A DNA stretch of 64,000 nucleotides, from NCBI RefSeq assembly GCF_000975115.1, contig NZ_BBRE01000003.1:1-64000 (forward strand), in the 5' to 3' direction. Below the pieces are notes generated by a model. The model was not told the DNA's origin. It ran no database searches and saw only the letters and a program-made list of their open reading frames with translations. The stretch is from Demequina oxidasica (GTDB taxonomy: Bacteria > Actinomycetota > Actinomycetes > Actinomycetales > Demequinaceae). Of the stretch, positions 43,036 to 64,000 are shown piece by piece. Each line of letters begins with the position of its first letter. The first letter of the stretch is position 1. The position numbers were made by a program, and so were the translations under genes.

Positions 43036-45825
43036 TCAATTAACGGCGCAGGCCGCACCGTTGAGCTCAACGCTGGATAGCTCGCCGATGCCGGCGGTCT
43101 GAGATCCGAGGAACCCGAAGGTGATGCGCTGCCCGGGTTTGATGGTGGAGTTCCAGGACAGGTTGCTCACCGTCACGTCCGCACCGCTCTGGTTCACCTG
43201 ACCCGACCACAGTTGCGTGATCTTCTCGCCGTTGCCGAAGCTCCAGGCCAGATCCCAACCGTTGATGGATTCATCGGACAGGTTGGTGATCCAGACCTGG
43301 CTGATAAAGCCGCCGGGCCATCGCCCGTGCACGGTGTAGTCCACCGCACAGGTGGGAACCGGTTCCTCGCTAGCGAGATTGAGGCCCACCACCACCGGGT
43401 CATGGTCGGAGGTACGGAACTCGTTCGGCGCATAGAGGTTGGACACTTGGGCCGGCGTCTTGAAGTCCGTGTTGTAGTCCAGCGCGGAGGACTCGTCGGA
43501 GTTGAGGTGGTACTCGGCTGCCTCCGTGATCTGGTCGACGATGCTCGCCGAGGCGAACGTATAGTCGAGGGTTCCCCACTGGCCGTCAAAGACGTAGGAG
43601 TAGTCGCCGGCCCCTAGGTCCGTGAGACCCGCATCGCGGAGCACCTCGATGGGGTCCTCCATAGCGTACGAGTTCAGGTCTCCCACGAGGAGGACGTCTG
43701 AGTCGTCGACACCGGTGGGGTCAGAGGCAATCCAGTCCACCACGGCGTGTGCCGCGTCGGTGCGGTTCGCGTTCCAACACCCCGCCCCGTCGCCCTGATC
43801 TGCGTCCGCACCCGAGTCAGGGCAGCTGCCTTTGGACTTCCAGTGATTGGCAACCACCGTGAACGTCTCGCCGTTGGACAGTTGCTCAAATGACTGGGCG
43901 AGGGACGGCCGGTTGCGACTGTCGTCGAATCGCGGGTCTACCGACGAGTCGAGCACTGCGTAGTCGCCTGTCGGGGCGACGGCGCGGGTGTCGTAGATCA
44001 TTCCGACCCGAATGGTGTCGGTACCGATCACCCCGGTGTCGACGTAGGAATAGGCATCCTCGCCAATCGCGTCGTTCAGTGCCGAGGTCAGATCCGCGAG
44101 GGGCTCGACACCCGTGGTGTTCTCGAGTTCCATGAGCCCCATGACGTCCGCATCGATCTTTTCCAGGGCGGACACCAACTTGGCGCGCTGGCGGTCAAGT
44201 TCCTCGGTGGTGTTCGCGCCACGGCAGCCCTGCTTGTTTCCGTCGGGACCGCATTGACTTCCGTTGGCGTCCAACGTCAGGAAGTAGTTGAGCACGTTGA
44301 AGCTGGAGAACTTCAGAGAGCCACCGACCTCGGGTGCCCCGGCAGGGCGGGGGTTCGCGGACTCGAAGTTCGGAACAACTCCGCCCGGCACCAGCCCGGT
44401 GTCACTCAGGTCACCCACGGGACGGATACGGTACGCATTCCCCGAAGCCGAGTTACCAGCCCAGGAATAGGTCATTACTCCGGTCAGGCCGTCTATCGTG
44501 TCACCTCCGCGCAGCGGGTTGATCGCGCTTAATGGGTCGCCCCCGCCGCCAAAGACGATGGGGTCGGGGTTCTGAGCCTGCGTAGCATCGTCGACCTTGA
44601 TTCGGTTCAGGTCGTTGGCGGCCTGGATCGCGTTCGCGGCTGCGCCAGGCTGGGCCACGGCCGTGGGCTGGTCCAGTCTGCCGTCGCCGGAAATTGTCAG
44701 TTCTCCAAAGCGCCCGAGCAAGTACATCTCTGTGACATAGAGCGTCTGCGGAACGGTGACCAGCATGCCCTCATAGGCCTCGGCAGAGTTGGCCGCCGCG
44801 AACGGCAGCGACACCGTCGCCGGCGTTACCACCTGGTCCGATGCCTCAACCGTGACCTCGGTTACAGAGGAGAGTTGAGTCTGCCCCTGGTACTCCCCTA
44901 CTGTTCCCGTAACGCTCACCTGATCACCAAGACTGACCTGGTCCGCACCGTTATTGAAGACAAAGATGCCTTCCGACGTTGCGGCATCGCTATCGGTGTC
45001 AGCATCCTGTTCCTGCACGTAGAAACCGCGCAAGGCCGGCTGCGGACCCTCGTAGTCACCGACCACAATGCCGTCGATGGTGACGAACTGGTCAAGCATG
45101 GGCGAGGTTTCGCCCGCGCCCTGAATAGCGTTGATCAGGGCCGGCGTGGCGACTTCCCCTCCGCCATCACCGTCTCCGTCACCATTGCCGTCACCGCCAC
45201 CATCACCGGGATCCGTGCCGTCGCAGGTCGCGGCATGAGCGCCAAGCCCATCAAACGTGTTGGACTCGTAACCTTGCCACTCGACAGCAGGGTCGAACGC
45301 GTCGGAACCGTCCGTGTCGCCGGCGCATAGGTCCTCGTTGCGACGCAGCGTGTTGTCAGCGGTACTGGTGAGTCCCTCTCCCCATTGCGAGCCTGGGTCA
45401 AAGCCAATCTGGCCGATCACGTCGAGAGTGTCGGCGCCATGGACGAGCGCGAGCGCGTCGTCGCCGTTGAACAGCCCCGAACCGGTGGTCTGATCCGCCT
45501 CCGCGAGGATCGCAGGGTCGGCTGAACTGTGGGCGAAGACGAAGACGTCGCCCGTGGTGACGGTGCCGCTCAGCGCAAAGGTGGAGCCGGCATCGGCCGA
45601 ACCGTTCGAGTATTGGGCGATCGCGTACTCCGCCAGGTCGACATCGGCACCAGTGCCGTTGTAGATCTCCAGCGCCTTGTTATTTGAGCTTCCCTCGATG
45701 TACTCAGAGAAGAACAAGTCTGATGCCTGGGCGTCGGTGGTGGGTTCCGCGCTAGCGGGTATGGCCGATGCAGCGGTCACCCCCAGTGCGAAAAGTACGG
45801 TCGTGGCGATGATGCGTCGTTGCAT
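43036..45825 (-). CDS. secreted ExeM/NucH-type nuclease with C-terminal CBM2
   Basis: A 929-aa secreted protein. Order: signal peptide (1-27, cut after ASAEP region), lamin-tail domain (about 30-150; DLFFSEYIEGSSNNKALEIY), Gly/Asp linker, OB-fold region, endonuclease/exonuclease/phosphatase domain (about 490-800; FNVLNYF, GLMELENT, GDLNSY, SDHDPVVVG) and a CBM2 at about 830-929 (YTVHGRWPGGFISQVWITN, NGWDLAWSFG, NSTIKPGQRITFGFLG). The nuclease half should degrade extracellular DNA for phosphate or nucleosides; CBM2 modules bind cellulose or chitin. Related proteins usually end in a wall anchor or nothing. ATG at 45825 follows AGGGAG. Confidence 0.92.
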   Translation of the reverse strand: MQRRIIATTVLFALGVTAASAIPASAEPTTDAQASDLFFSEYIEGSSNNKALEIYNGTGADVDLAEYAIAQYSNGSADAGSTFALSGTVTTGDVFVFAHSSADPAILAEADQTTGSGLFNGDDALALVHGADTLDVIGQIGFDPGSQWGEGLTSTADNTLRRNEDLCAGDTDGSDAFDPAVEWQGYESNTFDGLGAHAATCDGTDPGDGGGDGNGDGDGDGGGEVATPALINAIQGAGETSPMLDQFVTIDGIVVGDYEGPQPALRGFYVQEQDADTDSDAATSEGIFVFNNGADQVSLGDQVSVTGTVGEYQGQTQLSSVTEVTVEASDQVVTPATVSLPFAAANSAEAYEGMLVTVPQTLYVTEMYLLGRFGELTISGDGRLDQPTAVAQPGAAANAIQAANDLNRIKVDDATQAQNPDPIVFGGGGDPLSAINPLRGGDTIDGLTGVMTYSWAGNSASGNAYRIRPVGDLSDTGLVPGGVVPNFESANPRPAGAPEVGGSLKFSSFNVLNYFLTLDANGSQCGPDGNKQGCRGANTTEELDRQRAKLVSALEKIDADVMGLMELENTTGVEPLADLTSALNDAIGEDAYSYVDTGVIGTDTIRVGMIYDTRAVAPTGDYAVLDSSVDPRFDDSRNRPSLAQSFEQLSNGETFTVVANHWKSKGSCPDSGADADQGDGAGCWNANRTDAAHAVVDWIASDPTGVDDSDVLLVGDLNSYAMEDPIEVLRDAGLTDLGAGDYSYVFDGQWGTLDYTFASASIVDQITEAAEYHLNSDESSALDYNTDFKTPAQVSNLYAPNEFRTSDHDPVVVGLNLASEEPVPTCAVDYTVHGRWPGGFISQVWITNLSDESINGWDLAWSFGNGEKITQLWSGQVNQSGADVTVSNLSWNSTIKPGQRITFGFLGSQTAGIGELSSVELNGAACAVN

Positions 45826-45937
45826 TCGTGAATCTCCCTTTTGTCCGGTATGTGCCACGCTAGCTGGCGCTACCGACAACTGCAGGTCTAGACGCTGAAC
45901 GCGATGCAAACACCTGGTAAACGTAGTGTGACGTTAC

Positions 45938-53648: not shown

Positions 53649-56600
53649 CTAGTTCGTGCGGCGCCTTGAGTGACGCGTGATGAGTAGACCTGCCGCCAAC
53701 AGCGCCAGCGCGATTGCTACCATCACCGCCGCATCGGTACCCGTCGTGGACAACGCATCGTCGTCCGTGGAGACAGGTGCGTCCGCCGTGTCATCAGCGG
53801 CCGCAACCACCGTGATCTCGTACTCGGCGATGAGGCTATTCGCGTCGTCGTAGGCCTGGAGGTGGTGCACGCCAGGTTCGAGATTCATTGGGATCGTGAC
53901 GGTGACGGTCGCCTCACCGTTAACCACCTGGGCCGTCGCGAGCTGCTGGTAGGTGCTTGCGATGCCGACCTCGACCTCATCACCGGTGAGTCCGGTGAGC
54001 GTGAGGTCGAATGTCTGACCCGGGACCACCGAGGTGAACGGCACGTGGAACGTTGCTCCGGCCGACGGGGTCGAGTCCGAGTCCTCATCGGTTCCAGAGT
54101 CCGCACCCCCACCCGCGCCGGCGTCCCCGTCCGCACCTGAGTCGCCGCCGGTGCCGGATCCGTCGTCTGGGTCCGTGCCGGTTCCCCCGTCGGTGCCATC
54201 GTCCGGGTCTGTACCGGTGCCGTCGTCGGGATCCGTACCGTCCTCCGGGTCGGTGGCCTCGACCAACGCCCCGAGCGCCGTGGTGATCGCGACTGTGGCG
54301 TCGTCCACCTGCTGCTGAGTCCGTCCCGACGCCGCGAGCACAATCTGACCGCGGTTCACAGCCACGTCGAGGGAGGCCACAGACTCCGCCGTGAAGGCTT
54401 CTCTGTCGATGGCACCCGCAGTTGAGATTGCGTCCTCGAGCGTTGCCGCATCGACGCCGCTGGCGTCAGCCACGCGTATCAGTGAAACTTGGTCAACCCA
54501 GCCCCAGTCGCCGACACCCCAGTCCCCCCTCACCTGTACGGTGAGGATGCCGTTGTCGCCAACAACTGCATCGACGCTCGGCGTGGACCAGTTGCCCCAG
54601 CCCAGCAACTCCATTGGCACCGTCAACTCAGCGTCCCCGGGGTTGGCGACGAGCTCGACTGCGGCACTCGCCTCACCCTCGTCCGCGCCCATCAATCCCG
54701 CACTCAGGCGGTATACGCCGGGTGCGAGACCGTTGACTTCCTGAGTGGCGCTGAACTCGAAAGGCTCCCCTGTCGCGGCGTCGGACCACATGTTGAGGGC
54801 GAAAGACCCGAACGCGTCGCCGGTGTCCATTACCCAAAGTGTCCCGGTATCCGCGTTGGCGGGCCAGGGGTCAGCGATGATCTGCCACGGAGTCACATCG
54901 TCGACGCCGCTCTCGAAGCCGCCGTTGAGGATCCAGTTGCGAGCCGTCACGGTTACGGTGGCGGTCGCTGCCCAGCCGTTTTGGGACACACCATGGACGA
55001 CGTAGGTGCCCGGCGACGTGATGAGGTCCAACACGTCGTTCCAGATCACCGACTCCGTGGTGGTGGACTCGTCAAAGGCCTCCACCGTCACCGTGCCCGG
55101 AAGCACAATCTCGTCCCCCTCAACCGACTCCACCACTGCAGGGTGAACCGTGGGGTCTGGCACTGTGGCCTCGCCCGTGGTCAGTCCATCGATGGCACCT
55201 CGCAACTGAGTCCAGGCGGCGTCAACGGCAGCCTTGCTCGGAGCGGGCGAGTCGAACACGAACTGAGCTCGGCGCTCACCCTTGTCGAGCGCGGCAACAG
55301 AGGACACCGTGTAGCCCTCGCGGTCGATCGCATCGGCTTCGGCTGCCAGGGCCTCGAGTGCCGAGGTATCTGCGGTCACAGTTTCCGAGTCGGCAACGAG
55401 TGCAAAGTTGTCGATTGTGCCCCAGGAGGCTGCTGGCAGGTTGAAACTCGCGGAGATGGTGACAACACCATCGGCGCCAACGTTGAGCAGTTCCGTGGTG
55501 GGAGTCTGCCAGTTCAGGTACCCGTCGAGCGTTGCCGGAGCGTTGACGGTCGAGATCCCCGACGCCGCCGCGATGCTAATGACGCCGGTCGTGCCGCCGT
55601 CACCCTGCATCTTGGCTGACAGCCGATAGGTGCCTGCTGGAACTCCGGTGATTACCTGCTGAAGTCCAAAGCTGAACGCATTCGAGGAATAGAAATGCGT
55701 CGACTTTGACCCTTCGAACGGGTCGTCGTTGGCGCTGATCGTGTATCCCGAACCGGTACCTGTCCATGGCTCGACGCCACTCTCAAAGCCGGGGTTCAAC
55801 ACGAAGTTCTCGCCAGAGCTACCCGCCTCAAGCACGGTAATACTCGCGGTAACCGCAATATCAGCGGTTGTCGTTCCCTTGATGGCGTAGACGCCGGGCC
55901 CCGTGATCCACGCGGTGGAGGCGGACCACGTCACGTCCTGATACTCCGTCACTCCGTCGGTGTAGCGAACGTCGACAGCGGACGGCAGGGTGACGGTGTC
56001 GCCGTCGGTGACGGTGATCAACGGTGCAACCACGGAGTCGAACTCGCGCGGGCCGACCGAACCGGTGCGTGCGTACTCATAGACGTTGAGCGACTCGAGA
56101 GGGTAGCCATTGAAGTCGAAAAGTGCCTGGTTGTCCCAACCGGAGCCGCCATACGCGTCTGCGGGGCCCTCGACCTCGTCATTCGGGTCGTAGAAGTGCT
56201 CGGCGTAACTCGTCGCCCAACCGGAGCCGAACTCCTCCCACTTCTCCCAGTTGCTGTCGTAGTCGGACGGCGGGCCCACCGGGAGCCACGCGGGCTCCCA
56301 ATAGAAAGTTCCCAGTCCCTTGCCGTCGGACACCTTTGCCACCGCCTGCATGACGTCGCGGACGGCGAGTGCCTGTCCCTGAACCGAGGAGGAATAGGCA
56401 CTACTTGCGTTGGAGGCCTTGATGACGTTAGTGGTCCCATCGCCATCCTCGAGCGTGTAGTTCCAGGAGGTCTCGGCGACCACAACCTCCTTGTCATAGG
56501 TCGTCGCAATTTGGTCCAGCACCGAGGTGAGGTTGTCGAGGGTGCCGTGCCAGAACGGGTAGTACGAACTCGCGAAGACGTCGTAATCCACGTTGCGGTC

Positions 56601-57341
56601 GTCGAGAGCCTTTGCGACAGTCGCGTACTGACCAGCGCGCTCAGGGTTGGTGAAGTGGACCGCGACCTTGACGTCGCTGCTTAGCGTGTCTCGCACCGCC
56701 TCGGAGCCTGCCTGAAATAGCTGAGCGGTGTTGTCCCAACCACTGGTTCCGGCAATCTGACCGCCTGTGGTCTCGTTGCCGATCTGAACCATGCCCACAT
56801 CTACACCGGCGTCATCCATGTCCTGCAGCGTTTGTGCTGTGTAGTCATAAAGTGCGGTGGCGCGGTCTTCAAGCGTCAGTCCGGCCCAGTCCCGCGGCGC
56901 GACCTGCTGACCAGGGTGCGCCCAGAAGTCCGAGTAATGGAAGTCAACGAGCACCTTCATGCCCGCGTCGGTCGCGCGCTTGCCGATCTCCGTGGCGCGA
57001 GTGGCGTCAACGTTGCCGGCGCCGTATCCGTTGCCGTCATCGTCAAACGGGCTATTCCACACGCGAATGCGCGCATAATTCACGCCATGGTCCGCGAGCA
57101 CCTCGAAGAGGTCCGCCTCCGCGCCCGAGTCGTCGCGGAATATCACGCCCGACTCCTCGAGCGACAAGATTGACGAGAAGTCCGCCCCGTTGATGAAGTT
57201 GTCGCCCATGCCCTCAACTTTGGGGACGGTAATCCCGGCCTCGATGGGGTCATCGTCCGCTGCGACGGCAACGGGCGCTATCGCGACCATCCCCATCGCC
57301 ATGGCACTGGCGGCTGTGACCGCTCCCAGTCTGCTGCGCAT
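53649..57341 (-). CDS. wall-anchored GH53 endo-beta-1,4-galactanase, multidomain
   Basis: A 1230-aa surface enzyme cutting beta-1,4-galactan of pectin. Order: signal peptide (1-27); GH53 barrel (about 40-425) with acid/base Glu190 (VQIGNET) and nucleophile Glu290 (VVAETSW); Ig-like domain (440-505); CBM61-like module (511-665; FVLNPGFESGVEPWTGTG); short helical FIVAR-like repeat; second Ig-like domain; second CBM61-like module (NWILNGGFESG); second helical repeat; Asp/Gly/Thr-rich repetitive linker encoded near 54070-54260; a further beta domain; and a sorting end LSTTG, hydrophobic helix and RRR tail. LSTTG varies from LPxTG as is frequent in actinobacteria. The start has GGGAG before ATG. 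Confidence 0.93.
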   Translation of the reverse strand: MRSRLGAVTAASAMAMGMVAIAPVAVAADDDPIEAGITVPKVEGMGDNFINGADFSSILSLEESGVIFRDDSGAEADLFEVLADHGVNYARIRVWNSPFDDDGNGYGAGNVDATRATEIGKRATDAGMKVLVDFHYSDFWAHPGQQVAPRDWAGLTLEDRATALYDYTAQTLQDMDDAGVDVGMVQIGNETTGGQIAGTSGWDNTAQLFQAGSEAVRDTLSSDVKVAVHFTNPERAGQYATVAKALDDRNVDYDVFASSYYPFWHGTLDNLTSVLDQIATTYDKEVVVAETSWNYTLEDGDGTTNVIKASNASSAYSSSVQGQALAVRDVMQAVAKVSDGKGLGTFYWEPAWLPVGPPSDYDSNWEKWEEFGSGWATSYAEHFYDPNDEVEGPADAYGGSGWDNQALFDFNGYPLESLNVYEYARTGSVGPREFDSVVAPLITVTDGDTVTLPSAVDVRYTDGVTEYQDVTWSASTAWITGPGVYAIKGTTTADIAVTASITVLEAGSSGENFVLNPGFESGVEPWTGTGSGYTISANDDPFEGSKSTHFYSSNAFSFGLQQVITGVPAGTYRLSAKMQGDGGTTGVISIAAASGISTVNAPATLDGYLNWQTPTTELLNVGADGVVTISASFNLPAASWGTIDNFALVADSETVTADTSALEALAAEADAIDREGYTVSSVAALDKGERRAQFVFDSPAPSKAAVDAAWTQLRGAIDGLTTGEATVPDPTVHPAVVESVEGDEIVLPGTVTVEAFDESTTTESVIWNDVLDLITSPGTYVVHGVSQNGWAATATVTVTARNWILNGGFESGVDDVTPWQIIADPWPANADTGTLWVMDTGDAFGSFALNMWSDAATGEPFEFSATQEVNGLAPGVYRLSAGLMGADEGEASAAVELVANPGDAELTVPMELLGWGNWSTPSVDAVVGDNGILTVQVRGDWGVGDWGWVDQVSLIRVADASGVDAATLEDAISTAGAIDREAFTAESVASLDVAVNRGQIVLAASGRTQQQVDDATVAITTALGALVEATDPEDGTDPDDGTGTDPDDGTDGGTGTDPDDGSGTGGDSGADGDAGAGGGADSGTDEDSDSTPSAGATFHVPFTSVVPGQTFDLTLTGLTGDEVEVGIASTYQQLATAQVVNGEATVTVTIPMNLEPGVHHLQAYDDANSLIAEYEITVVAAADDTADAPVSTDDDALSTTGTDAAVMVAIALALLAAGLLITRHSRRRTN

Positions 57342-57450
57342 TGCATCTCCCTTGATCTTCTTTGACCTGACTCGGCGCGTCGATTGACGGCCGGCTACTG
57401 CTACTAGGTGACCCGCGGGGTCCTAACTCGGACTCGCGGCGACGCCGCGA

Positions 57451-58545
57451 TCACGCATCCTCCGGGCGAAGCTCAAATCCATCGATGAAGCCCCAGTCCT
57501 CGCCGCCGAGCGTGCCGGTGACCGCGATGGTCGCGACACCATCCTCACCCACGAGGATTCCCGGCACGGCGGTTGCCTGTCCCTGCACGCTCACTGGGTA
57601 GGCCGTCGCCAGATCAGCGGTGCCGACGACGTTGGGAGAGCCGTCGCCGTCCTCGAGGGTACGCACCCAGGAGGTCTCGGCGACCATGACCTGCTTGCCG
57701 TAGGTGTTCGCGATGTCGCTGAGCACCGCGGTGAGGTTCTCCGTGGTGCCATGCCAGAACGGGTAGTACGAGCTGGCAAAGACGTCGTAGTCGACGTCAA
57801 AATAGTCGAGGATGGAGGCGTATCTCGCGTAGGCGCCTTCCTTTTCGGGGTTGGCGAAGTGCACAGCCACCTGAGCGTCCGGATACACGTCGCGGACAGC
57901 CGCGCTGCCCGCGGAGAAGATGGCCGCAATGCCAGCCCACGCGGTCACGCCTGCGACGCCGCTATTGGTCTCGTTGCCCACCTGGACTACACGAACGTCG
58001 ACCCCCGCGTCCTTCATCGTGGTCAAGGTCTGGTGGGTGAACTCCCCCGCGACTGCGGCACGCTCTTCATCCGACGTCTCTTCCCAAGACTTGGGCGCGC
58101 GCTGCTTTGCAGGATCCGCCCAGAAGTCCGAATAGTGAAAGCCGACCAGCACTCGCAGGCCAGCGTCGGTCGCGCGTCTGCCGATCTCCGTCGCGCGAGC
58201 GGCGTCGGTGGTGCCGCCGCCGTAACCCTGGCCATCAGCATCGTGCGGGTCGTTCCACACGCGTACGCGCACGTCGGTCACGCCGTGCTCGGCGAGCACG
58301 GCGAAGAGATCCGCGGGCGTGCCGGCGTCGTCGCGAAAGATGACGCCGCTGGCTTCGAGCGCCAGCACTGAGGACACGTCGACTCCGTTGATGAAGTCCG
58401 TGGGGAGGCCGTCGACCTTGTCGACAACGATTCCGGCGTCTATCACTCCGGAATCGGTACCGGTCGTCGCGGGTATGCCCGCGCCCACTCCAATGGCGGC
58501 TACAGCCACGACGGCGCCTCCAATCCACAGACCTCGTTGTCTCAT
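57451..58545 (-). CDS. short GH53 galactanase paralogue with internal deletion
   Basis: A 364-aa secreted GH53. The N-terminus (RQRGLWIGGAVVAVAAIGVG) is a signal peptide or anchor. Residues 40-327 align collinearly with the long galactanase, with Glu192 (VQVGNET) and Glu290 (VMVAETSW) kept. After residue 327 the rest of the barrel (last strand, GTFYWEPAW in the long enzyme) is missing and the protein continues with 37 residues resembling the end of a CBM61 (GEDGVATIAVTGTLGGEDWG). The frame is intact. Activity is doubtful. The gene starts 12 bases after the permease stop with no clear ribosome site. Confidence 0.88.
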   Translation of the reverse strand: MRQRGLWIGGAVVAVAAIGVGAGIPATTGTDSGVIDAGIVVDKVDGLPTDFINGVDVSSVLALEASGVIFRDDAGTPADLFAVLAEHGVTDVRVRVWNDPHDADGQGYGGGTTDAARATEIGRRATDAGLRVLVGFHYSDFWADPAKQRAPKSWEETSDEERAAVAGEFTHQTLTTMKDAGVDVRVVQVGNETNSGVAGVTAWAGIAAIFSAGSAAVRDVYPDAQVAVHFANPEKEGAYARYASILDYFDVDYDVFASSYYPFWHGTTENLTAVLSDIANTYGKQVMVAETSWVRTLEDGDGSPNVVGTADLATAYPVSVQGQATAVPGILVGEDGVATIAVTGTLGGEDWGFIDGFELRPEDA

Positions 58546-58557
58546 AAGTATTGCGTG

Positions 58558-59445
58558 CTAGCCCTTGACGGATCCGGCGGTAAGACCACCCACGATGTAC
58601 TTCTGAAGGGCGAGGAAGAGCGCCAGAACCGGCAAGGATGCGACCACGGCGCCGGCGGCGAAGAGCCCCCAGTTGCTGGTCAGCTGGTTGGAGACCCACT
58701 GGTACATGCCCACCGCGAGCGTCCACTGGTCCGGCGACACGAGCACGATCTTGGCGAGGATAAAGTCACCAAAGGCGGAGATGAACGCCAGCAAAGCCAC
58801 CACCGCGAGGATGGGAGTCACGAGCGGCATAATCAGGCGCCAGTAGATCTGCGCATGCGTGGCCCCATCGATCTTCGCGGCCTCGTCCATTTCCTTGGGA
58901 ATCGAGTTGAAGAAGCCGTACATCAGGAAAGTGTTCGCGCCCAATGCGCCGCCCAGGTACACACAGATGAGCGCGATCTTCGAGTTGATTCCGAGTGCCG
59001 GGGCCACGTTTCCCAGTGCCGTCAGCAGCAGGAAAACGGACACAAACGCGACCGTCTGCGGGAACATCTGAACAATCAGCAGCGTGGTCAGGCCGGGCCG
59101 GCGCCCCTTGAAGCGGAAGCGTGAGAAGGCATACGCCGCCGCCGCCCCCATCAAGACAGCACCTACGGCGGTGGCGCCGCCGACGATCAGCGTGTTGCCC
59201 ACCCACGTCCAGAACGTGGTCTCGCCCAGTGCCTGATAGTTGGCGAACGAGATGTCGCTAAACAGGTTGCTCGAGCCAGTGAGGGTCCCCGATTCTGACA
59301 GCGACGCCGACAGCACGTAGACCAGCGGGAAGATCGCATAGAACGCGATGATGGCGGCGAGCGGATACTTCCACCCCACCTCGGCCCACCAGCGACTGCG
59401 GCGCGTGGGAGAGCGACGGGCTACTTTGACGGTTTGCTCGGACAT
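58558..59445 (-). CDS. galacto-oligosaccharide ABC transporter permease, MalG/GanQ-like
   Basis: A 295-aa CUT1 permease with six segments; the coupling loop is DEAAKIDGATHAQIYWRLIM and the C-terminus GGLTAGSVKG. It starts two bases after the MalF-type gene and forms the channel with it. Neighbouring galactanase and beta-galactosidase genes point to beta-1,4-galacto-oligosaccharides as cargo (inference). The ATPase must come from elsewhere. Confidence 0.92.
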   Translation of the reverse strand: MSEQTVKVARRSPTRRSRWWAEVGWKYPLAAIIAFYAIFPLVYVLSASLSESGTLTGSSNLFSDISFANYQALGETTFWTWVGNTLIVGGATAVGAVLMGAAAAYAFSRFRFKGRRPGLTTLLIVQMFPQTVAFVSVFLLLTALGNVAPALGINSKIALICVYLGGALGANTFLMYGFFNSIPKEMDEAAKIDGATHAQIYWRLIMPLVTPILAVVALLAFISAFGDFILAKIVLVSPDQWTLAVGMYQWVSNQLTSNWGLFAAGAVVASLPVLALFLALQKYIVGGLTAGSVKG

Positions 59446-59447
59446 CT

Positions 59448-61061
59448 CTAGATCTCCTCGAGCTTGCGGGTCTGACGGAATGCGACTGCGGAGATGATTC
59501 CCACGATCACGAAGACGATGATCGACAGCGCCGACGCGAGGCCATAGTCGGCCACACCACCCGAGACGCCGGAGATCTTGTAGATCGCGGAGATCAGGAT
59601 GTCAGTGGAGCCGAGGCCACTAGTGCCTGGGAAGGCGGGACCTCCCTCGGTGAGCATGTAGATAATCGTGAAGTTGTTGAAGTTGAACGCGAACGAGGCA
59701 ATGGCCAGGGGCGCAGTGGACACCATGAGCAGCGGCAGCGTGATGGAGCGGAACTGACGCCAGCGCCCGGCACCGTCAATCTTCGCGGCCTCCATCGTTT
59801 CTCCGGAGAGCGCCTGCAAGGCGCCAGTACAGACTAGGAACCAATACGGATAGCTCAGCCATAGGTTGACCCACAGGATCGCGAACCGCGCGAGCCACTC
59901 GTCGCCCAGCCAGTTGATATCCGCACCAAAGAAGAACAGGTCGTTGATGACCCCGAACTCCTTGTTCAGCATGCCCCGCCACAGGAGTGCCGACATGAAT
60001 GCCGGGAACGCGTACGGGAGGATGAACAGGGTGCGGATAAACTTGCGTCCCTTGACCCTCTGGTCGTTGTAAATCATCGCGAACAGGAGCCCGAGGCCAA
60101 AGCTCGTGAGCACCGTCAGGATGGCGAACGCGAAGGTCCACAGAGTCACCTCGAGCAGCGGCCCCGCAAGCGCGGTATCGGTCACGGCGCGCTGGAAGTT
60201 GTCAAAGCCAACGGTGACGACCCAGCCCGTCGGCAGCATCGTGCCGTCCTCGGCAACAAAGTTGCCGCTCGCCGAGGCCTCGTACACCGTGCCGGTCTCT
60301 GTATCCGTCAGCGTCTGGGCGTCGGGGTCCCATTCCATCGTCGATTTATAGATCGCACCCGTCTGCCCCTCACGGGTGCGAATCGATCCGTCCTCGGCAT
60401 CGTCGGAGACGGGAACGCGCAGGTTAACTACGGTGTCCTGCAAGTCCTGGTCGCTAAAGAGGTCACTACGGGGCACGATCTCCCAGCCGGGTACCTCCGT
60501 GGGAGTCCCCGAGGCATCGACTGCCGCACCGTTGACGGGTGCGAGGGGGTCCTCCGCAGTTCCGACCTCGACGAACCCGTCGTCGTTGATCGCGAAGCCG
60601 ATGGTGTCGCCGTCACGCACCACGGCGAGGGGGTAGGAGACCGAATCCGGCACTCGGTGCTCCGCCTGGATGAGCGCTGCGTCGACCGCTTGCTGCTCGT
60701 TTCCGGCGTGGCCCGTGCCGTAGTTCGTGAAGGCCACATAGCCCGTGTAGCCAAGCGTGAAGATTTGGAAGACAAAGAGGAACACGAGGCCAGGGAGCAT
60801 GTACTTCAGCGGCATCGCCCGCTTGGTGAAATAGACCACATCGGCGACGACCAGGAGTACGACGGAGGCACCCAGGATGACCCAGGCCTCGACGTTAATG
60901 GCCGACATGATGATGCTGATGCCGAGCGCGTTGATGACTGCCATCACGAGCAGCTTCACAAAGAAGCCCCAGCCCATGCCATGCAGGTTACGCGCGTGGG
61001 ACACCCGAGGCTCGGGGTGCTGGCCGGGCCGGTTCACCGCGGCTGCCGCGTCTTTCGACAT
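59448..61061 (-). CDS. galacto-oligosaccharide ABC transporter permease, MalF/GanP-like
   Basis: A 537-aa CUT1 permease of the long MalF type: N-terminal segments, then an extracellular domain of about 170 residues (about 115-290) between early membrane helices as in MalF, and the coupling loop METAAKIDGAGRWRQF-like stretch (MEAAKIDGAGRWRQFRSITL). It differs from the 319-aa CebF-like protein, which lacks this domain. ATG at 61061 with GGAG upstream is chosen over the frame open to 61157. Confidence 0.92.
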   Translation of the reverse strand: MSKDAAAAVNRPGQHPEPRVSHARNLHGMGWGFFVKLLVMAVINALGISIIMSAINVEAWVILGASVVLLVVADVVYFTKRAMPLKYMLPGLVFLFVFQIFTLGYTGYVAFTNYGTGHAGNEQQAVDAALIQAEHRVPDSVSYPLAVVRDGDTIGFAINDDGFVEVGTAEDPLAPVNGAAVDASGTPTEVPGWEIVPRSDLFSDQDLQDTVVNLRVPVSDDAEDGSIRTREGQTGAIYKSTMEWDPDAQTLTDTETGTVYEASASGNFVAEDGTMLPTGWVVTVGFDNFQRAVTDTALAGPLLEVTLWTFAFAILTVLTSFGLGLLFAMIYNDQRVKGRKFIRTLFILPYAFPAFMSALLWRGMLNKEFGVINDLFFFGADINWLGDEWLARFAILWVNLWLSYPYWFLVCTGALQALSGETMEAAKIDGAGRWRQFRSITLPLLMVSTAPLAIASFAFNFNNFTIIYMLTEGGPAFPGTSGLGSTDILISAIYKISGVSGGVADYGLASALSIIVFVIVGIISAVAFRQTRKLEEI

Positions 61062-61125
61062 TATGTCTCCTGGAATTTCAATCAGTATTGCCGTAGGCCG
61101 GCCGTCAAGCGCGAAGAGGTGGTGC

Positions 61126-61157
61126 GTGGGGCGAAACGCCGGGGCGTCCCGCCCCAC
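61126..61157 (-). terminator. intercistronic hairpin after binding-protein gene
   Basis: Outer 8-base arms (61126-61133 and 61150-61157) and an inner ACGCC/GGCGT pairing, 9 bases after the binding-protein stop, no U-tract. Third example in this window of a hairpin directly behind a sugar- or peptide-binding protein gene. Confidence 0.55.
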
Positions 61158-61166
61158 CTCAAAGAA

Positions 61167-62441
61167 CTAACCCTCGAGTGACTTCTCGAGCTCGGTCACC
61201 ATGTTGTCCCAGGTCGACACCGGCTCTGCACCAGTGATGATCTGAATCTCGGCGGCGTTCCACAGGTCCCACACGTTGCCCATCTCGGGGATGGAAGGCA
61301 TAGGGACACCAGCGGCGGCCGATGCGACGAATCCTGCGGTGATGGGGTCGGACGACACCTCATCGGCGAGTACCGATAGCGCGGGAAGGCGAGGGTCTGC
61401 CTCGTACAGCGTGCGCTGTGCTTCCGCGGTAGCCATGTAGTTCACCAGGAAGTCGTTCGCAAGCAGAGCATTGTTGCTCTGCGAGCTGAGGTAGAAGCCC
61501 TGCACACCGACGAACGGCGCGGCAGTCTCGCCGCCGGCGGAGACCATCGGCGAGACGACGAGGTTCATGTCACCACCGTCGAAGAACGGCATCCACGGAC
61601 CCTGCATGATGAACGGCGACTTGCCATCAGAGAACAGCTGGTTGGAGGTGTCGTAGTCAATCGTGTCGGAGAAGATTCCGGTGCCCTTGGCGCCGTTGTC
61701 GTAGAGGAACTGAGCGAAGGCCTCGCCATTCTCGCCGCCCATTCCGACTTCGTTGGTGTAGGACCCGGACTCGTCCTGGACGAACACGGGTGCGCCGAAT
61801 GACGTCTGTAGCGGGTAGGCGCTGTAGCCGTCGCCCGAGGCACCGTTGGTAAACAGAATGAAGGGACGGTCTTCGAAGCCAGCTTCGTTGGCCATGGTGA
61901 TCATCTCGTCCCACGTCGTGGGAGCGGTGTCGCCCACCAGGTCCGCGTTCTGGATGAGCGCGATCGCCTCGGTCGAGTACGGAAGGCCATAGAGCTGGCC
62001 GTCATACGTCATGGCGTCGAGCGCGACTTCCTGAAAATCATTTGCTTTGTCGCCAAGGTCGATGGTGTCGACCACCCCGGCCGTGACAAGTGCGCCCAGC
62101 CAATCGTGTGCGCCAACGGTGATGTCGGGTCCTTCCCCCGTAGGCACTTGAGCCACGAAATCGTTGCGGAGGTCCTCGAAGTTCTTCTGAACCAAGGTGA
62201 CGGTGGCACCCGTGTCGGTCTCGAACTGTTCAGCCGCAGCCTTGAGCGCACCTTCGCGCTCAGCGTCGGTCCACACCACCAGCTCGGCACCGGTGCCGTC
62301 GATTGCAGGAGCGTCGGACGGTGACGTCGATGCGGCAGGCGCGGTCGATGCCGACTCCGCGGGCTCCGGGTCAGAACTGCACCCGGCGATCAGGGCTGCG
62401 GTCGCGACAAATGCGACGCCAATTCCAAACTTGTTACGCAT
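61167..62441 (-). CDS. galacto-oligosaccharide-binding lipoprotein (MalE/GanO-like)
   Basis: A 424-aa lipoprotein: signal peptide ending in lipobox LIAGC, a Ser/Ala linker and a family 1 maltose-type fold (LVVWTDAEREGALKAAAEQF, LPYSTEAIALIQNADLV, PFIMQGPWMPFF). It should bind galacto-oligosaccharides released by the neighbouring GH53 enzymes. GGAAGGAAA precedes the ATG. It is 153 bases from the beta-galactosidase stop, in which I see no clear promoter or operator. Confidence 0.9.
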   Translation of the reverse strand: MRNKFGIGVAFVATAALIAGCSSDPEPAESASTAPAASTSPSDAPAIDGTGAELVVWTDAEREGALKAAAEQFETDTGATVTLVQKNFEDLRNDFVAQVPTGEGPDITVGAHDWLGALVTAGVVDTIDLGDKANDFQEVALDAMTYDGQLYGLPYSTEAIALIQNADLVGDTAPTTWDEMITMANEAGFEDRPFILFTNGASGDGYSAYPLQTSFGAPVFVQDESGSYTNEVGMGGENGEAFAQFLYDNGAKGTGIFSDTIDYDTSNQLFSDGKSPFIMQGPWMPFFDGGDMNLVVSPMVSAGGETAAPFVGVQGFYLSSQSNNALLANDFLVNYMATAEAQRTLYEADPRLPALSVLADEVSSDPITAGFVASAAAGVPMPSIPEMGNVWDLWNAAEIQIITGAEPVSTWDNMVTELEKSLEG

Positions 62442-62594: not shown

Positions 62595-64000
62595 TCAGCG
62601 CTCACCGCCTTCGGGTGACTTCGCGGTACGCACAACGGCACATCCGCCGGCGACGATGGTGAGCTCCCGGGCGACGCTGCGACCGGTGAACATTTCAATG
62701 CCAGATGCGGGCACTGTGACGGGCGCATCGCAGTGATTGATTGCTATCAGGTAGTCGGCCTCAGGGCTTTGGCGCATCACAACCTCGAGCCCCTCGGGAC
62801 TCCCTGCGAGGACCAACCCAGCGTCGGCGTAGGCCGCCGCCATCAAAGGTCCGAGTTCGTCGACGCTCAGATGGGTGCTGACGTACCACCCATGGCCGGC
62901 GCCGTGCGAATTGCGCGTGATCGCGGGCGATCCGGCGGCGGGTCCGTCGACGTACGTGCCGATGACTTCTGCGCCATCGAGCACGAGGTCCTCCTGCCAG
63001 GTGTCGGCCGCAAGCGTCAGTCCATCTCCGTGGGTCCAGGCGATCTTTGCGGTCTCGCTCTCACGCATCGGCAGGTATTCGGCGACGGTCACCCCGAGCG
63101 CAGCTTTCAGGGGTGCGCCGTATCCGCCCTCGTGGACAGACTCATGCTCGTCGACGACTCCCGAGAAGTACGACACCACCAGCGTGCCACCTGCCTCGAC
63201 ATACCGCGCAAGGTTTTCGCCGGCATCGGCCGTGAGGAGGTAGGAGGCAGGAGCCACCACCATCTTGTACTTACCGAGGTCCTGAGTGGGGTGTGCGAAG
63301 TCCACCGTCACCCCGTCCCGCCACAGCCGCTCGTAGTAGGTGCGCATGCGCTCGCGGAACTGCGCGTCGTCGGACGGACGCCACTCGAGATCCTGCGCCC
63401 AGAGCGACTCCCAGTCGTACAACACCGCGACATCGGCGTCGACGCGCGATCCCTTCGCCTCCTCGAGCGCTCCAAGCCGTCCGCCAAGGTCCACGACCTC
63501 GCGGAACACGCGGGAGTCCGCGCCGGCGTGCGGCAGCATCGCCGAGTGGAACTTCTCCGCGCCGGAACGTGAGGCCCGCCACTGGAAGAACAGGATTGCA
63601 TCAGCGCCGCGCGCAAAGTGGGAAAGCGAGTTGCGGCACATCTCGCCCGCAGATTTGGCGATGTTGCGGCCCTGCCAGTTCACGGCGGAGGTGGAGTGCT
63701 CCATCAGAATCCAGGGCGCACCGCCCGCGACCGAGCGCGTGAGGTCCGCCGCGAGCGCAAGGCCCACGTGGGACTCGGGGTCCTGAGCCCAGAGGTAATG
63801 GTCGTTGGCGACGATGTCGACCTCGCGAGCCCACTTCCACAGGTCGAGGTTCCACGACTGGTGTGCCATGAAGTTGGTGGTGACGGGCTTGTCGCTAAAG
63901 GCACGGATCGCGTCCCGCTCGGCGCGGTAGCAGGCACGCAGTTGGTCGTCGGTGAACCGCGCCCAGTCGAGCTTCATCGCGGGGTTAGGGGTCGAGGCGG
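62595..64000 (-). CDS. GH42 beta-galactosidase, cut by the window edge
   Basis: The frame is open to the window end, so the N-terminal part of the protein is missing; about 468 residues are visible of some 670-690 expected. They cover the end of the catalytic barrel, with the nucleophile Glu in ILMEHSTSAVNWQGRN, the trimer-forming middle domain (about from YLLTADAGENLARYVEAGG) and the C-terminal beta domain. No signal peptide can be judged. GH42 enzymes take galactose off imported galacto-oligosaccharides inside the cell. The Met at 63977 is internal, not the start. Confidence 0.9.
   Translation of the reverse strand, partial: ASTPNPAMKLDWARFTDDQLRACYRAERDAIRAFSDKPVTTNFMAHQSWNLDLWKWAREVDIVANDHYLWAQDPESHVGLALAADLTRSVAGGAPWILMEHSTSAVNWQGRNIAKSAGEMCRNSLSHFARGADAILFFQWRASRSGAEKFHSAMLPHAGADSRVFREVVDLGGRLGALEEAKGSRVDADVAVLYDWESLWAQDLEWRPSDDAQFRERMRTYYERLWRDGVTVDFAHPTQDLGKYKMVVAPASYLLTADAGENLARYVEAGGTLVVSYFSGVVDEHESVHEGGYGAPLKAALGVTVAEYLPMRESETAKIAWTHGDGLTLAADTWQEDLVLDGAEVIGTYVDGPAAGSPAITRNSHGAGHGWYVSTHLSVDELGPLMAAAYADAGLVLAGSPEGLEVVMRQSPEADYLIAINHCDAPVTVPASGIEMFTGRSVARELTIVAGGCAVVRTAKSPEGGER

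Follow-up and report, generated by a model that had tools for sequence, protein, structure and literature searches.

An internal in-frame deletion in a GH53 galactanase paralogue of Demequina oxidasica, with probable loss of function

Introduction

Does a gene that has kept an open frame and both catalytic residues of a galactanase still encode a working protein if its barrel runs straight into the last residues of a carbohydrate-binding module? This question is raised by a minus-strand reading frame of Demequina oxidasica (57451..58545, here GH53-A), located in the window analysed in this study, a continuous stretch of 64,000 nucleotides. The first-pass annotation described the gene as a GH53 paralogue in which an in-frame deletion had fused a cut barrel to a CBM61 tail, and assumed that the deletion had either produced a non-catalytic galactan-binding protein or was recent.

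Results

The GH53-A gene and its neighbourhood

We found the frame to be open as described, with an ATG start, no internal stop and a length of 364 aa. The protein belongs to the GH53 family by its Pfam score (321.9 bits, cut-off 24), with an incomplete profile match in which residues 52-328 cover profile positions 1-281 of 340. In NCBIfam, neither P0001 (the GH53-A protein) nor P0002 or P0003 received a GH53 name, all matches being far below cut-off, and a scan of positions 57200-58800 for promoters and terminators found none. According to Pfam and the model strands, the barrel fragment (residues 52-327; 57565..58392, minus strand) extends from β1 to β7. It includes both catalytic glutamates, the acid/base E192 in a GNE motif (57970..57972, minus strand) and the nucleophile E290 in an AET motif (57676..57678, minus strand), so that their reported retention holds; both are conserved in all 51 aligned rows, a set which includes P0001 and excludes four distant rows. 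E290 aligns with E263 of the Bacillus licheniformis enzyme, the residue mutated in 2gft according to the title of that entry. Residues 328-364 (57454..57564, minus strand) are what remains of the CBM61-like domain of this same gene, namely its final 37 residues. The N-terminal hydrophobic stretch is retained, as judged by eye. By the same inspection this stretch is followed by a lipoprotein-like Cys in the copies of two other Demequina genomes (G009, L058:8653-10737; G034, L059:8362-10308), and no such Cys is present in GH53-A of the window or in the G036 and G021 copies; the anchoring mode of GH53-A copies seems from these sequences to vary between genomes.

The genome (2.62 Mb in eight contigs) contains two GH53 matches, GH53-A and its intact neighbour GH53-B (53649..57341, minus strand, 1230 aa) with a complete GH53 domain (positions 1-339 of 340), two Big_4 stretches, FIVAR and a weak CBM_4_9 match. 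The two proteins show 59% identity over the barrel, and the alignment of residues 40-327 with GH53-B, reported as gapless, in fact needs two single-residue gaps. At the C-terminus of GH53-B we noticed by eye a long D/G-rich linker followed by LSTTG, a hydrophobic stretch and RHSRRR; the last three elements resemble a sortase cell-wall anchor, and the NCBIfam LAXTG match on this protein is far below its cut-off. Upstream of GH53-A, all on the minus strand, lie an ABC permease ending 12 bp before the GH53-A ATG (58558..59445, Pfam BPD_transp_1), a further ABC permease (59448..61157, TM_PBP2_N and BPD_transp_1), a solute-binding protein (61167..62441, SBP_bac_8) and a GH42 β-galactosidase (62595..63977, Glyco_hydro_42 and 42M), the frame of which exceeds the window and spans 62595-64628 when extended. 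Based on these gene families, the two permeases, the binding protein and the GH42 enzyme, the locus is therefore probably a galactan-use cluster.

An intact orthologue in Demequina aurantiaca

The syntenic gene of D. aurantiaca NBRC 106265 (L036:5608-7551 in G036, the genome with the best match) is located at the same position as GH53-A, between the permease and GH53-B, and is intact. It encodes 647 aa with GH53, Big_4 and a CBM61-like domain, and Pfam recognises GH53 positions 1-340 and Big_4. Protein identity between GH53-A and this orthologue is 87.6% over residues 1-331 and 88% over residues 324-363, while GH53-A lacks 283 residues of the orthologue, a segment which starts at the end of helix 7 and reaches the last quarter of the CBM. 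On the DNA level GH53-A tracks the orthologous gene to 57565, and 57564 picks up 849 bp further on. The junction (57564..57565, minus strand) is thus where it had been suspected, near 57560, and as the missing piece amounts to 283 codons the reading frame is kept. GH53-A is a gene of the D. aurantiaca type minus a single internal 849-bp in-frame piece. The syntenic orthologue shows the proposed in-frame deletion directly; it also bears out the joining of a cut barrel to a CBM61 tail, but not a fusion of two genes, as the deletion lies inside a single one. With an intact orthologue in a relative and the conserved functional core absent, GH53-A is a candidate pseudogene by internal deletion.

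The breakpoints have the 4 bp GTGC in common, and 4 bp or more are shared by 2.7% of random position pairs of the gene, so this microhomology is suggestive only as a route of deletion. Bacterial rearrangements with microhomology at the junctions have been reported, with 8 bp or more as the cut-off deduced for true deletions (PMC3411829), compared to 4 bp in GH53-A. DNA identity between GH53-A and the orthologue is 90.1% up to the junction and 97.4% in the 269 bp after it, a stretch that extends through the intergenic region into the beginning of the next gene. We considered this high 3' identity as a recombination tract and discarded the idea: among 2881 segments of this length in the syntenic block 3.4% reach the same value, which is not exceptional.

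Structure of the truncated barrel and its tail

The AlphaFold2 model of GH53-A (mean pLDDT 77.7) contains seven barrel strands and an extra low-confidence strand at residues 12-16. Helix 320-330 is followed by residues 331-364 without secondary structure (pLDDT 55-60). In the control model of the intact orthologue, built from nearly the same alignment, strand 8 is present at 341-346, residues 409-419 form a helix, and the C-terminal domain is folded up to residue 644. The structure prediction thus agrees with the earlier view that the last barrel strand is gone: in the model, which gives no measure of stability, the (β/α)8 barrel of GH53-A is incomplete, strand 8 and loop 8 being absent. Fourteen of 55 invariant GH53 columns fall inside the deleted piece, and all 41 located before the junction are intact in GH53-A. 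Relative to the orthologue, GH53-A has lost strand 8, loop 8 and helix 8 together with the end of helix 7, and beyond the barrel the Ig domain and three quarters of the CBM.

The tail does have exactly the 37 residues that had been counted, out of about 147 in the module, and does not constitute a complete CBM61 β-sandwich (about 150 residues). For the C-terminal domain of the orthologue Pfam yielded no CBM61 match. The domain matches 9fli (E 5.8e-20) and 2xom (E 1.8e-12), which are both named galactanases, and we take 2xom to be the Thermotoga CBM61 (TmCBM61). The tail of GH53-A is related to CBM61 through these two matches of the orthologue domain together with the tail alignment, and on such sequence grounds the CBM61 label appears reasonable. 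With regard to the missing part of the barrel, a structural study states that in the solved GH53 enzymes, with one exception, calcium or a disulphide connects loops 7 and 8, and that in two of these enzymes the -3 subsite is located on loop 8 (PMC8447715).

Distribution in the genus and age of the deletion

We searched 44 genomes of the genus, one per species, with a 121-base query spanning the junction, considering up to 20 best candidates per genome. Some match was obtained in 10 of the 44 genomes, a full-length match in the source genome only, so that the fusion, which the first-pass annotation had proposed to look for in related strains, was absent from the candidates of the other 43; D. 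aurantiaca carries both halves of the query, separated from each other. In total we identified 47 GH53 matches in 32 of the 44 genomes, and GH53-A alone ends before profile position 331 (the row of G030 starts at 215, where its contig ends). At least two copies are present in 12 genomes, one copy in 20 and none in 12, and a second GH53 copy is therefore dispensable in the genus. In the GH53-domain tree GH53-A and the copies of D. aurantiaca, G009 and G034 form one supported group (100/99). The G021_A copy is located outside this group and clusters with its own neighbour, apart from the remaining four A genes. Two distant GH53 domains were found in very long open frames of 1718 and 2715 aa (G006:C4:94781-95869 and G060:C1:417548-418636, respectively). 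Among the titles listed on Demequina glycoside hydrolases, GH53 with CBM61, GH53 structure, truncated barrels, truncated glycoside hydrolase pseudogenes and microhomology deletions, none names the GH53-A gene; the combination of Demequina and galactanase returned no paper.

Polarised amino-acid changes in residues 35-327 are about equally distributed, with 13 changes assigned to the window branch, 12 to the D. aurantiaca branch and 6 undecided (p=1.0); over residues 1-327 the numbers are 15, 14 and 8, respectively. Three outgroups named A were used, among them G021_A, which is weaker owing to its position in the tree. In the GH53-domain tree the end branch of the window copy (0.092 versus 0.049) is inflated by four post-junction residues in its row. 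The dN/dS of GH53-A against its orthologue amounts to 0.199 and exceeds that of every other gene among the 19 compared (second-highest value 0.109), but this pairwise value spans the whole time since the split without separating the branches and is no sign of decay after the deletion. These 19 genes were retained from 39 ORF pairs after 20 overlapping shadow ORFs had been dropped, and one of them (43036-45909) is cut at the end of the fetched stretch. The substitution D135G was also examined as a sign of decay and is not decisive, the column comprising 41 D, 8 N and 2 G in 51 rows, one G being that of P0001.

An even distribution of changes would be expected both from a deletion that is recent relative to the D. 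aurantiaca split and from a fragment still under constraint. Of the two we consider the recent deletion the more likely, since the protein retains no folded binding module. One half of the earlier alternative is thereby favoured, in line with the 13 versus 12 changes and the 41 intact residues, whereas the galactan-binding protein is not, given the reduced CBM and the unstructured residues 331-364.

Discussion

Taken together, we think it very probable that GH53-A has undergone a fairly recent in-frame loss-of-function deletion in a dispensable galactanase paralogue that was redundant with GH53-B. The ancestral gene would have encoded an anchored or secreted endo-β-1,4-galactanase, composed of the GH53 barrel, an Ig-like Big_4 domain and the CBM61-like module, within a galactan-uptake cluster. 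One deletion of 849 bp, perhaps by slippage or end joining at GTGC, would then have removed its middle. Judging from the anatomy of the model, the barrel of the remaining product could not close, and the protein should be unstable and inactive. That the frame stayed open would be a matter of chance (about 1 in 3), with the downstream GH53-B left intact, and the loss would have been tolerated because GH53-B, with its complete GH53 domain, supplies the same activity. Two observations count against a loss of function and would also fit a retained one, namely that neither frameshifts nor stop codons have accumulated and that every invariant residue before the junction has been preserved.

These same observations, together with the hydrophobic N-terminus, both glutamates and a window branch that is not accelerated, are what would be expected if the truncated protein had been retained at the cell surface as a non-catalytic galactan binder or decoy. 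We nevertheless regard this as quite unlikely, as a CBM reduced to a quarter and predicted to lack secondary structure from residue 331 on, a barrel without strand 8 and the loop-8 side of the cleft, and the absence of the deleted form from the 43 other genomes (up to 20 best candidates per genome) all speak against it. Very unlikely in our view is also the more specific variant in which a membrane-attached, non-catalytic seven-strand half-cleft would hold galactan near the ABC importer while GH53-B cuts it. A fusion or recombination between GH53-A and GH53-B might be suggested by their adjacency and barrel identity, but is hardly conceivable: both sides of the junction match one and the same gene of D. 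aurantiaca in order, GH53-B stands complete beside it, and the tail is GH53-A's own 3' end and not borrowed from the neighbour.

An assembly or sequencing artefact, by which 849 bp of a full chromosomal gene had been dropped, appears unlikely, even though the species is represented by a single assembly and the junction occurs in one genome only (44 genomes, up to 20 best candidates each). In the eight-contig genome the junction is located 57.5 kb inside a contig of 382 kb. GH53-A and GH53-B have no 25-mer in common on the same strand, and no exact direct repeat of 8 bp or more exists between the 180-bp and 170-bp surroundings of the breakpoints in the orthologue; the collapse of a repeat between the two GH53 genes, which had been named as a possible refutation, is therefore unlikely. 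The missing 849 bp were not found on any contig among the best 40 of 128 candidates, where the sole match was the paralogue GH53-B with 64% over 272 of the 849 bases, and a relocation of the segment was rejected on the same result. A loss-of-function deletion in GH53-A thus remains the preferred explanation. In all other respects the gene looks like ordinary decay. It clearly illustrates how a single in-frame deletion can eliminate a tandem copy of a carbohydrate enzyme and leave behind a gene free of stop codons, and as the score of the fragment far exceeds the GH53 cut-off, it would probably still be counted among the galactanases by automatic annotation.

Comparison with known galactanases

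The best fold match of the GH53-A model is the Bacillus licheniformis galactanase (1ur0_B; TM 0.74 by query, 0.70 by target), with 56% identity over 293 columns. This endo-β-1,4-galactanase (1ur0, 2gft) has a full barrel in which a calcium site joins loops 7 and 8 (PMC8447715); the loop-8 side is deleted from GH53-A. GanA of G. proteiniphilus T-6 (9fli) aligns with its residues 199-811 in one stretch to residues 36-644 of the D. aurantiaca orthologue, running through GH53, the Ig-like domain and the C-terminal CBM. The complete GanA also possesses an additional N-terminal part, for which a weak CBM-like match was obtained, whereas GH53-A matches GanA over residues 35-332 only. Likewise, the galactan-binding module 2xom matches the C-terminal domain of the orthologue including the part kept as a tail, of which GH53-A retains the last 37 of about 147 residues.
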